A stretch of 48,527 nucleotides of DNA, taken from positions 1 to 48,527 of IMG/VR virus record IMGVR_UViG_3300024432_000002, one strand, 5' to 3'. The stretch is from a virus. How positions within the stretch are numbered: the stretch's first letter is position 1; every line of letters starts with the position of its first letter. The notes under the pieces were generated by a model. The model was not told the origin of the DNA, did not search any database, and was given only the letters and a program-made list of their open reading frames with translations. Made by a program: the position numbers and the translations under genes. Shown one piece after another: positions 16,142 through 48,527 of this stretch.

Positions 16142-16498
16142 ATGATTCATTTTAGATCCAAAAATGACATCATACAATGGCTTGAACGGCACTGCCCCAG
16201 GAAGGCCATTGTTCGTTCTCTCCTCCAGAACGGGTGCGAGTTGTTAGGCGGCTTCGATCCGATTCCGCCGACAACTCGTGCCGGATGGATCGTGAGGGTG
16301 ATAGGAATGTATAACGCTAAACGAATATGGATTGTAGCGATTATACCCTGTGATGGTAAGCCTGATTACGAGATCAGGATATTACAAAGTGTGCCTTGGG
16401 AGAACTATATCGGGCATCCTGTGGCTAATCAAATTTGCAACGGTGATAGGCCGTGTCTATACATGGCAATGAAGGAGAGAGCAAATGAAAGTGTTTGA
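16142..16498 (+). CDS. Hypothetical protein
   Basis: 118 aa from the ATG at 16142 (a GTG directly before it is also in frame). Contains a beta-rich centre (AGWIVRVIGMYNAKRIWIVAII). The overlap of 14 nt with the next gene supports the reading frame. No family recognised. Confidence 0.6.
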   Translation: MIHFRSKNDIIQWLERHCPRKAIVRSLLQNGCELLGGFDPIPPTTRAGWIVRVIGMYNAKRIWIVAIIPCDGKPDYEIRILQSVPWENYIGHPVANQICNGDRPCLYMAMKERANESV

Positions 16499-28831: not shown

Positions 28832-29167
28832 TCATTTCTCCTCAGACAAAATAAAACCTAATTCGCGTGAAAGTTCTTTGATAAGTAACTTGGTATCGTC
28901 TACCGACAACGCCAACATAGGGTTAACCGGAATCGAATCAAATACCCGTCGCTCTATAAAAGTAACTGGCTGGGCAGCAAAAATCACAGGTGAGTGTTCC
29001 ATATCTGGATATCGATCCATAGAAATTTCTACTAATCCACCATTTTCATTAATAGTGAACTCTGTACTCATTTTACTCTGGTCTAAGAAACCTGTTGTTG
29101 GCGTAGCCGTGGCCATAGCTGTAGCCGCAGGTTCAATCGCTTTTGCTGTAACTACTTTTTTATTCAT
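28832..29167 (-). CDS. Hypothetical virion-operon protein
   Basis: 111 aa from the ATG at 29167 (GGAG upstream). A longer in-frame start at 29245 would run through a strong hairpin and is unlikely. Ala/Thr-rich N-terminus, then FTINENGGLVEISMDRYPD. Function unknown. Confidence 0.6.
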   Translation of the reverse strand: MNKKVVTAKAIEPAATAMATATPTTGFLDQSKMSTEFTINENGGLVEISMDRYPDMEHSPVIFAAQPVTFIERRVFDSIPVNPMLALSVDDTKLLIKELSRELGFILSEEK

Positions 29168-29207
29168 CGCTTTTCTCCTTGAACAGTTATTGTTAATAAA
29201 GGCCCGA

Positions 29208-29234
29208 CGCCCCCTTCTGCCCAAGGAGGGGACG
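29208..29234 (-). terminator. Terminator-like hairpin after the 402-aa structural gene
   Basis: On the leftward transcript CGTCCCCT pairs with AGGGGGCG (8 bp, one G-U) around an 11-nt loop, followed by CGGGCCTTTATT. It lies in the gap 29168-29251, just after an apparently major virion gene, where partial termination would lower expression of later genes. Confidence 0.45.
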
Positions 29235-29251
29235 CCAGGCAACAAAACTAA

Positions 29252-43784: not shown

Positions 43785-43820
43785 AAGTGAGGTGTTCTAT
43801 GACACGTAGATAAAACCTGC

Positions 43821-43848
43821 AAGCCCTGGCCTTGCGAGACCAGGGCTT
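43821..43848 (+). promoter_or_regulatory. Intercistronic hairpin 1
   Basis: AAGCCCTGG pairs perfectly with CCAGGGCTT (9 bp) around a 10-nt loop. No T-run follows; instead comes TTTAACCTTAATAGAAG and the next ATG at 43878. Similar hairpins precede the same leader at 44210 and 47792. Confidence 0.6.
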
Positions 43849-43877
43849 ATGGGTTTAACCTTAATAGAAGCAAGAGA

Positions 43878-44006
43878 ATGGAACAGCAAGAACTTGACCG
43901 GCAATGCGACATAATCCTGGAACGTGTCCGTCTTGAAATACTCGATCCAGTAGAAGCAATCGAAGAGCTAAAGACAATGATAACCTTAATAGGAGCAAGA
44001 GAATGA
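43878..44006 (+). CDS. Small helical protein
   Basis: 42 aa, acidic helix (LDRQCDIILERVRLEILDPVEAIEEL). Its last codons (MITLIGARE) are the repeated leader element of the next gene, with an ATGA overlap. Function unknown. Confidence 0.5.
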   Translation: MEQQELDRQCDIILERVRLEILDPVEAIEELKTMITLIGARE

Positions 44007-44197: not shown

Positions 44198-44209
44198 TTT
44201 CCCTTAATA

Positions 44210-44232
44210 CCGTCCTACCTGTTGTAGGGCGG
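44210..44232 (+). promoter_or_regulatory. Intercistronic hairpin 2
   Basis: CCGTCCTAC pairs with GTAGGGCGG (9 bp, one G-U) around CTGTT. Flanked by CTTAATA before and ACTTAAT after, then ATGATAACCTTAATAGGAG and the ATG at 44264. The same flanks surround the larger fold at 47792. Confidence 0.6.
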
Positions 44233-44263
44233 ACTTAATGATAACCTTAATAGGAGCAAGAGA

Positions 44264-45669: not shown

Positions 45670-45713
45670 AATGATAATGAATGATAACCCTTAACATAGT
45701 TGGAGGAACGAAA

Positions 45714-45920
45714 ATGTTTACAAAACAACACTATGTAGCAATAGCAAGTATTATCAAGGCAAATACAACCAGAATATGTATTGAGGATATAGCACAAGGC
45801 AGTAACGGATTACCCTGTTTGCATCCAGATACCATTGAGGATTTGGCTGACTACTTTGCAGCCAACAACCCACAATTCGACCGGCAGAAATTTCTTGATA
45901 CCTGCGGGATTGAAGGTTGA
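45714..45920 (+). CDS. Small conserved phage-type protein, copy 1
   Basis: 68 aa from the ATG at 45714 (GGAGG upstream). MFTKQHYVAIASII at the start, and an end FDRQKFLDTCGIEG identical to the protein at 46279. Resembles a common family of unknown function (MFTKxHYxAIA ... LADYFAxxNPxFDRxxFL). Its 3' end carries a promoter inside a 137-bp repeat. Confidence 0.7.
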   Translation: MFTKQHYVAIASIIKANTTRICIEDIAQGSNGLPCLHPDTIEDLADYFAANNPQFDRQKFLDTCGIEG

Positions 45921-45974
45921 CAAGCCATATCGAATATGGTATAATAAAGAGAATGATTTAGGAGAAATAAAATG
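45838..45974 (+). repeat. 137-bp direct repeat, copy 1
   Basis: Identical to 46397-46533, 559 bp apart. Contains the last 26 codons of one small gene, a full promoter and the ribosome site plus ATG of the next gene. A ready-made cassette for gene duplication or gain by recombination. Confidence 0.9.
45917..45945 (+). promoter_or_regulatory. Consensus sigma70 promoter in repeat copy 1
   Basis: TTGACA (45917-45922), exactly 17 nt, TATAAT (45940-45945), extended -10 TGG. Both hexamers match consensus fully, so strong constitutive host-polymerase transcription is expected. Confidence 0.88.
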
Positions 45975-46253
45975 AGCGAAAGTAAACATACGCCGGGAAC
46001 GTGGATGTCTGAGGGACTTATCGTAACAGCTTGTGAAGGTCGGCTATCTATAGCCGAAGTGCATGACCACAGCGAGACAAGCGATATGCACACAACTATA
46101 GAAGCAGAAGCCAACGTCCGCCTTATTGCTGCCGCTCCTGATTTGTTGGCAGCGTGTGAATATGCAATCGAAAAAATGAGAAACATCAAGGGAAAAACGT
46201 TCCCAATTTTACCAATACTAAATGCTATAGCCAAAGCCAAAAAAGAACAATAA
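45972..46253 (+). CDS. HTPGPW-type phage protein
   Basis: 93 aa. KHTPGTW near the N-terminus and ANVRLIAAAPDLLAACEYAIEK in the middle match a widespread phage/prophage family of unknown function. AGGAG precedes the ATG; transcribed from the promoter at 45917. Confidence 0.7.
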   Translation: MSESKHTPGTWMSEGLIVTACEGRLSIAEVHDHSETSDMHTTIEAEANVRLIAAAPDLLAACEYAIEKMRNIKGKTFPILPILNAIAKAKKEQ

Positions 46254-46278: not shown

Positions 46279-46479
46279 ATGTTTACAAAACAATACTATA
46301 AAGCAATAGCAGAGATTATTGTAAAGAATACGCACTACCATCAATTTTATTGTAGTACACCAAAATCAAATTTCGTGTATCATAAAGAATTAGTGAAGGA
46401 TTTGGCTGACTACTTTGCAGCCAACAACCCACAATTCGACCGGCAGAAATTTCTTGATACCTGCGGGATTGAAGGTTGA
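46279..46479 (+). CDS. Small conserved phage-type protein, copy 2
   Basis: 66 aa from the ATG at 46279 (GGAGG 7 nt upstream). MFTKQYYKAIAEII and an end identical to the protein at 45714; the middle is diverged (NTHYHQFYCSTPKSNF). Duplicated together with the promoter cassette. Confidence 0.7.
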   Translation: MFTKQYYKAIAEIIVKNTHYHQFYCSTPKSNFVYHKELVKDLADYFAANNPQFDRQKFLDTCGIEG

Positions 46480-46533
46480 CAAGCCATATCGAATATGGTA
46501 TAATAAAGAGAATGATTTAGGAGAAATAAAATG
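46397..46533 (+). repeat. 137-bp direct repeat, copy 2
   Basis: Identical to 45838-45974. Downstream of it a different gene is joined at exactly the ATG, showing that recombination within the cassette can swap the gene behind the promoter. Confidence 0.9.
46476..46504 (+). promoter_or_regulatory. Consensus sigma70 promoter in repeat copy 2
   Basis: TTGACA (46476-46481), 17 nt, TATAAT (46499-46504), identical to the promoter at 45917. Confidence 0.88.
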
Positions 46534-46683
46534 TATCAAGTATTAGTAAAGGTAATACTGGAAGACGGCACAACATACAAGAGACTATTTAATTACTGGG
46601 GTAATGCAGCAACATGGATTGAGGATTTAGCGAATGAGGGTGATAGTTTACCAGCAGAAGTTACAATGGAAATAATCAGATAA
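46531..46683 (+). CDS. Hypothetical small protein
   Basis: 50 aa (MYQVLVKVILEDGTTYKRLF), strand-strand-helix pattern, with AGGAG 7 nt before the ATG. Transcribed from the promoter at 46476. Function unknown. Confidence 0.6.
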   Translation: MYQVLVKVILEDGTTYKRLFNYWGNAATWIEDLANEGDSLPAEVTMEIIR

Positions 46684-47552: not shown

Positions 47553-47777
47553 ATGAGTACGAAAGTAACACCAAAACCAAAATTTAAGATGCAAGGCGTG
47601 GACTTTGCGAGCCTGTCAATGGGGGATTATTTTCTCCATGATGATAGTCTACTGGTGAAAACAAGTGTTGGAGACCAAAGAGCGGTCGATGTCAAGACGG
47701 GCATAGATTACTGTAATTTATGTGGCGAATACGTCCGTCCGGTTGATGTCGAGATCAAGTGGAAACGGAAGCAGTAA
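47553..47777 (+). CDS. Hypothetical small protein
   Basis: 74 aa; FASLSMGDYFLHDDSLLVKT ... AVDVKTG looks beta-rich with a CNLC pair near the end. Function unknown. Confidence 0.6.
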   Translation: MSTKVTPKPKFKMQGVDFASLSMGDYFLHDDSLLVKTSVGDQRAVDVKTGIDYCNLCGEYVRPVDVEIKWKRKQ

Positions 47778-47791
47778 TCCTTCTCTTAATA

Positions 47792-47876
47792 CTGTGCTGT
47801 ACGGGCAGGCGTTATTTCGCCGAGGCTCTACATTATCATTGTCGGATTTGCCGACAGCCGTTACCGTGCAGCACAG
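47792..47876 (+). ncRNA. Multi-branched structured RNA element
   Basis: P1: CTGTGCTGTACGG (47792-47804) with CCGTGCAGCACAG (47864-47876), 13 bp with one G-U. P2: GGCG/CGCC (47808-47821) with a 6-nt loop. P3: TGTCGG/CCGACA (47840-47856) with a 5-nt loop. This gives a three-way junction. The outer flanks CTTAATA and ACTTAAT match those of the simple hairpin at 44210. TTAATAGGAG and the next ATG follow at 47915. No T-run. Probably an mRNA leader element or small RNA; class not recognised. Confidence 0.6.
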
Positions 47877-47914
47877 ACTTAATAGAATGATAACCCTTAA
47901 TAGGAGACACAAAA

Positions 47915-48124
47915 ATGAAAGCTAAAATGGGTATAAATGAAGACCATTGCCCGGAATGTGGTGGTAGTTTGATGTATTTTGACAGGGACTGGCATGGAGA
48001 CCAGTTTTGTCAAGAGGTAATATGTCGTGCTTGCGGGTTTGAGTTTCAACAGTGGTACAAGATAACTTTTGATGGCATGACAATGACAGGTGAAGATGGA
48101 GATCATGAGGATATTACAGAATGA
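47915..48124 (+). CDS. Small zinc-ribbon protein
   Basis: 69 aa: CPECGGSLMYF and CRACGFEFQQWYKI form a zinc ribbon of a frequent phage type. AGGAG leader and the RNA fold lie upstream. ATGA overlap with the next gene. Confidence 0.65.
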   Translation: MKAKMGINEDHCPECGGSLMYFDRDWHGDQFCQEVICRACGFEFQQWYKITFDGMTMTGEDGDHEDITE

Positions 48125-48284: not shown

Positions 48285-48527
48285 ATGAAACGTCTGATAA
48301 CAGAAAAGCAAGAAGAAGTGTACCGCTGTCGCCACCATGACTTTGAAGGGCTAACAGAGAAAGAGACTGCTTTGAAACTAAAGATTGCTGTTCAGACAGT
48401 ACGTGAACACCTTACCAACTTAAAGAAGAACACCCCCCAACTGTTTCCGATCCTTTCAAAAGAAAACGCAGAAGCCTGGGGTCGCTGGTATGTTGGCGGT
48501 CAAACTTGTGCAGAAATAGCAGAGATT
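48285..48527 (+). CDS. HTH regulator A, N-terminal part (continues at 1-353)
   Basis: 81 codons to the contig end, continuing in frame at base 102 to the stop at 353 (164 aa in total). Starts MKRLITEKQEEVYRCRHHDF like regulator B, with a distinct first HTH (LKIAVQTVREHL). No strong ribosome site; the preceding gene ends 8 nt upstream, so coupling is likely. Confidence 0.8.
   Translation, partial: MKRLITEKQEEVYRCRHHDFEGLTEKETALKLKIAVQTVREHLTNLKKNTPQLFPILSKENAEAWGRWYVGGQTCAEIAEI
48427..48527. repeat. Terminal direct repeat, right copy (circular overlap)
   Basis: Identical to 1-101. See the left copy; a third copy at 546-646 means the closure should be tested with spanning reads. Confidence 0.95.

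Follow-up and report, generated by a model that had tools for sequence, protein, structure and literature searches.

A strongly folded intercistronic element in the early region of an uncultured tailed phage and its family of hairpin modules

Phages pack their small early genes into operons, and the dosing of each gene is poorly known. In phage T7, the early RNase III processing sites are stable but imperfect hairpins lying at the borders between cistrons of the early operon. Element B, which lies in the window analysed here (the whole 48,527-nucleotide stretch of IMG/VR virus record IMGVR_UViG_3300024432_000002), is likewise a stable imperfect hairpin at an intercistronic border; unlike the T7 sites, it carries a conserved sequence frame and an SD leader, and some of its copies are too short.

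The nearest published analogue of the module is SAS/ESAS of the cluster K mycobacteriophages, short start-proximal repeats found with non-structural and mutually unrelated genes; about half of them follow inverted repeats that enclose a variable spacer, and their function is not known (PMC3203893; PMC12699233). Conservation in ESAS concerns the repeats themselves, and RNA pairing has little support according to the authors (PMC3203893). Similarly, elements A, B and C of our window are inverted repeats with a variable spacer just before repeated AACCnTTAATAG leaders; unlike in ESAS, the stem varies here while pairing is kept through compensatory changes. SAS proper is absent: its 13-bp consensus GGGATAGGAGCCC shows no enrichment, with 3 matches when up to 3 mismatches are allowed versus 7.4 expected. 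The module would give the unexplained mycobacteriophage SAS/ESAS a structural counterpart. A further comparison is offered by the T4 gene 32 leader pseudoknot and the gene 43 operator hairpin, which bind the encoded protein and control translation (review PMC3014915). B resembles these leaders in being a structured stretch of mRNA that precedes a phage gene; unlike them, it has no such binding protein known, and its pseudoknot is only a candidate.

Fold and genomic setting of element B

The earlier note had described a 13-bp closing stem with one G-U and two inner hairpins at 47792-47876, and we found these parts where it placed them. The stem CTGTGCTGTACGG/CCGTGCAGCACAG, with a single U-G, encloses hairpin 1 (GGCG-UUAUUU-CGCC, 47808-47821) and hairpin 2 (GUCGG-AUUUG-CCGAC, 47841-47855). 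The 85 nt reach an MFE of -39.6 kcal/mol versus a shuffle mean of -23.3 ± 3.1 (z -5.26), and none of 200 dinucleotide shuffles attains this stability. Pair probabilities are 0.98 to 1.00 for the closing stem, about 0.96 for hairpin 1 and about 0.99 for hairpin 2, while the 3 to 4 bp beneath hairpin 2 are less certain (0.37 to 0.75). Those coordinates are right for the core but too short for the whole, as the stem continues outward to 47774-47895 through symmetric internal loops of 1 to 2 nt. The predicted excess of stability over shuffled controls holds for the core, for this extended stem (z -6.3) and for the entire gap (z -8.6).

An unbiased RNALfold scan of the whole window places B among the top three + strand folds. 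By comparing 203 same-strand gaps of 45 to 170 nt, between genes called in about 20 contigs of the phage group, we found that the gap holding B has the lowest z of all. A z of -3 or below occurs in 36 of the 203 gaps versus 4 of 203 length-matched coding controls, so that the intercistronic gaps of this phage group are, as a class, enriched for strong folds. The folded RNA of element B is real, and it is the strongest fold among the gaps tested in the phage group. The + strand stretch 16155-16292 folds as strongly as B; it was dropped as an RNA element, since similar stretches in several relatives look protein-coding.

B fills the gap between two rightward genes, upstream of a zinc-ribbon gene as the earlier note had it, and the repeated leader AATGATAACCCTTAATAGGAG stands at the foot of its long hairpin (Table 1). 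The downstream gene also gives a weak match to the Q-like antiterminator PHROG 6060 (E 1e-4). The stem has no T-run directly after it, the next letters being ACTTAATAG, which agrees with the note and led us to reject B as an intrinsic terminator. The list of promoter matches has no entry between 47416 and B.

No Rfam 15 family matches B at or above its gathering score, in line with the suggestion that it fits no known class. The best sense-strand match over B is the Cis-reg family freshwater-2 RNA (RF02980), of which B is not a member (18.4 bits versus a gathering score of 49.9). It does not conform to the ARAGORN model of a tRNA or tmRNA either.

Two leader sequences recur next to starts in the early region, on the + strand only: TTAATAGGAG at 43986, 44247 and 47897, and TTAACATAGTTGGAGG at 45691, 46256 and 46687. 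These are SAS-like repeats.

Table 1. Positions of the features discussed in the text
Feature	Position	Strand	Evidence
Upstream 74-aa gene without a family; the module opens at its stop codon TAA	47553..47777	+	
Full extended B stem, from upstream stop codon region to the leader of the next gene	47774..47895	+	fold, RNALfold scan
B left frame TTCTCTTAATA, common to the 44199 copy and G006	47781..47791	+	
Element B core, closing stem and two hairpins	47792..47876	+	fold, pair probabilities
Unpaired junction TTATCATT, perfect complement of AATGATAA	47833..47840	+	
B right frame ACTTAATAGAA	47877..47887	+	
Leader AATGATAA; alternative partner is 47833-47840 or the extended stem	47886..47893	+	
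Start-proximal repeated leader AACCCTTAATAGGAG, includes SD AGGAG	47892..47906	+	
Downstream gene, 69-aa zinc-ribbon-like protein	47915..48124	+	sub-threshold Pfam zinc ribbon
Strong sigma-70 promoter nearest to B (1.3 kb upstream), matching the consensus 12/12, with TG before -10	46476..46504	+	
Element A, second copy of the B frame with other stem CCGTCCTAC/GTAGGGCGG; then CCTTAATAGGAG, ATG 44264	44199..44244	+	
Element C, type I frame AAACCTGCAAGC/GCTTATGGGTTTAA; then leader AACCTTAATAGAAG, ATG 43878	43813..43858	+	covariance model
Separate leader: terminator-like hairpin, its loop pairing with the SD of the gene that begins at 29167	29175..29245	-	loop/leader covariation

Copies of the module and their paired stems

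Relatives of the virus were collected through its putative major capsid protein, a name given from gene order only, as the protein has no PHROG match. This search yielded 77 related loci in IMG/VR (46 to 100% identical) and one MAG contig labelled Neptuniibacter, and no relatives among 50,697 sequenced phages. The window matches two contigs from a single metagenome at 99.9% identity, neither of which covers B. DNA searches for B in the 50,697 phage records and 72,556 plasmids returned short chance matches only; the exact stem pattern had no match in IMG/VR, 49 relatives gave short flank or leader matches only, and protein-based retrieval via the neighbour genes of B gave nothing. Scanning with the leader pattern produced mostly chance coding matches, with the exception of a contig of the window's own virus.

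Three copies share what we call the type II frame, TTCTCTTAATA-stem-ACTTAAYAGAA, and differ in their stems: element B, element A and a copy in the nearest relative (G006), the latter being the only true copy in a frame-pattern scan that otherwise gave mostly chance coding matches. With the spacer before ATG omitted, B reads TTCTCTTAATA-stem-ACTTAATAGAATGATAACCCTTAATAGGAG-ATG and A reads TTCCCTTAATA-(CCGTCCTAC ctgtt GTAGGGCGG)-ACTTAAT-GATAACCTTAATAGGAG-ATG; the G006 copy is TTCTCTTAATA-(CCGGGCTATG cccgcaa CATAGCTCGG)-ACTTAACAGAA. Among these three sequences 94% of the cells are paired, a level reached by 1 of 500 shuffles, while slid controls are 33 to 44% paired. Compensatory changes among homologues, which the note had asked of its element, are seen for the stem, where 7 of 18 pairs differ on both sides; with three members of the exact frame, two of them from one genome, this is suggestive and not conclusive. 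The inner hairpins are present in B only, and the multi-branched top is therefore without comparative support. What had been announced as a new multi-branched element is a real and very stable RNA-like structure, but what the copies conserve is a plain hairpin frame together with the repeated ribosome-binding leader, and their comparison does not support a three-way junction as a conserved class.

A sister frame, type I, reads AAACYYRCAAGC-GA-stem-GA-GCTTATGRGTTTAA and occurs in four relatives, twice each in G004 and G014 and once each in G015 and G036. In the six copies 97% of the cells are paired, 7 of 12 pairs show double changes and 0 of 500 shuffles match, figures to be read with a bias toward pairing in mind, as several module copies were first recognised partly via their folding. 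A covariance model built from these six finds further copies as well as element C of the window (hit at 43811-43857, E 2.6e-4), which had been left out of the model. The modules separate genes that run in the same direction. For most type I copies the upstream gene was called as ending on the frame's first TAA, and in several the right arm extends into the next SD. These copies bear on whether B is a chance or neutral structure without function, the least probable reading in our judgment: B's inner hairpins have no homologue, as neutrality would allow, but the z values of -5 to -8.6, the shared frame and the compensatory changes speak against it, and the frame-sharing copies largely refute it.

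The same comparison bears on the level at which the module acts. In the type II copies, all stem pairs but one are Watson-Crick, the exception being a G-U when read on the mRNA strand, and the cores fold more strongly in sense than in antisense. Several type I copies fold about equally on both strands, and the core of C is weaker in sense than in antisense. Because the strand signal is mixed in the type I copies, action at the RNA level is likely but not proven. It seems improbable that the module is instead a DNA-level element, in which inverted repeats, conserved at the ends and variable in the middle, serve as a site of recombination or insertion or form a small mobile element, non-autonomous and bounded by CTTAATA. 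CTTAATA does stand on either side of B and again in the leader, the G015 copy is a highly symmetric inverted repeat, modules accompany different genes, and the module is missing from the syntenic region of G004. However, the G-U on the mRNA strand and the stronger sense folds of B, A and G006 oppose such an element, as does the placement from stop codon to SD; integron attC was also rejected, the ends of A, B and C lacking the RYYYAAC/GTTRRRY simple sites on either strand.

Other features were noted. A four-codon mini-ORF with an SD, ATGACACGTAGATAA (43788-43812, +), lies between an early promoter and hairpin C and is a possible leader peptide. In G004, a very strong 25-bp hairpin (locus L005, 16-92, z -8.4) lies upstream of a probable early promoter.

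A separate SD-pairing leader and the candidate pseudoknot of B

Elsewhere in the window, a hairpin leader occupies the same location in about 16 relatives and in locus L156, often with a T-rich tail. The family lies about 1 to 1.5 kb after the putative capsid gene, where a strong hairpin is followed by the next gene, and the window loop CCTTGGGCAG is complementary to the SD region CTGTTCAAGG. Across 17 phages the loop-leader duplexes average -19.4 kcal/mol for cognate versus -12.2 for non-cognate pairs, and in a non-redundant set of 13 members -18.3 versus -10.5; none of 20,000 permutations gives an equally strong covariation. The MAG contig, outside the earlier set, has the same pairing in quite different sequence. 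No Rfam match was obtained for six loci of the family or for the whole window, and the leader is probably a new cis-regulatory pseudoknot leader. As judged from its covariation, this family shows that loop-to-leader pairing is a device used by these phages; it does not prove such pairing for B, whose pairing is shorter and misses the SD.

In B, the single strand of the junction is 13 nt long and includes TTATCATT, and the complementary AATGATAA is repeated in the early leaders at 43976, 44237, 45680 and 47886. An 8-nt complementarity of this kind would arise by chance in about 0.7% of cases (of 4000 shuffles each, 26 for the leader and 31 for the loop), a figure that applies to the B copy only. 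When the gaps were searched blind for loops complementary to their leaders, the B gap came directly after nine gaps, all from the orthologous leader family just described. The pairing in B is weak (-5.7 kcal/mol), does not cover the SD itself and is absent from A and G006; TTATCATT/AATGATAA is a possible pseudoknot. The same complement might let B work in trans, as a small RNA or an RNA binding several leaders, since AATGATAA occurs in several of them and its partner is unpaired in B. We regard this as highly improbable, because no promoter match lies near B, no terminator closes it and the loop sequence is not in the other copies; a free small RNA is also disfavoured by the membership of B in a family of intercistronic modules and by the lack of any sign that it has its own promoter.

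Possible roles of the module

According to the above-described analysis, the likeliest reading of B, to which we give about even odds, is a cis-acting intercistronic mRNA module controlling the downstream cistron. We are led to an mRNA element in cis by the stop-to-SD placement, the fixed frame, the stem that is free in sequence but paired, and the repeated leader. The rightward early operon of this uncultured tailed phage would be transcribed into a polycistronic message, probably starting at the 46476 promoter, and in the interval from the upstream stop codon to the zinc-ribbon gene's SD this message would fold into a long hairpin on the fixed frame. The leader would be held beside the SD, either as part of the extended stem or by base-pairing with the junction loop TTATCATT. 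In its likeliest role, the structure would keep terminating ribosomes apart from the next start, so that translation of the downstream gene is set independently of the upstream gene. We favour control of translation initiation, or its decoupling from the upstream gene, and the module family probably tunes expression of the next gene.

The main rival is a hairpin for RNase III-type processing or stability, in which cutting of the stem or a block to exonuclease splits the operon message at the cistron border. The long imperfect duplex (13 bp plus the extended part with internal loops), the intercistronic position and a stem that varies while keeping its pairing would all suit such a site. However, the A and G006 copies have only 9 to 10 bp plus UUAA/UUAA, which is short for a substrate, and a processing site would not need a conserved sequence frame; we consider it unlikely, though less so than the other rivals.

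A module that joins an invariant frame and leader to a stem free in sequence yet paired, and that accompanies unrelated genes, would amount to a transferable expression-control cassette. More tentatively, the two hairpin frames, whose stems vary freely but are compensated, may together with the loop-to-SD pseudoknot leader form a modular system that sets expression gene by gene in these uncultured phages. If so, RNA regulation in phages would have a layer so far unrecognised, with B as its most elaborate copy.

Several minor observations concern the window itself. A repeated sigma-like HTH gene is found at 1-201, 539-746 and 48420-48527, and the record end is identical to 539-646, which means that the break of the contig falls inside a repeat; circular permutation or incomplete closure of the genome is probable. 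Near-identical strong promoters (TTGACA-N17-TATAAT) lie at 45917-45950 and 46476-46510, both within a duplicated stretch (about 45843-45975 and 46402-46534), and a similar promoter occurs in L005 near 4276. The palindromic spacer of the window pair, CCATATCGAATATGG, is a possible candidate operator.
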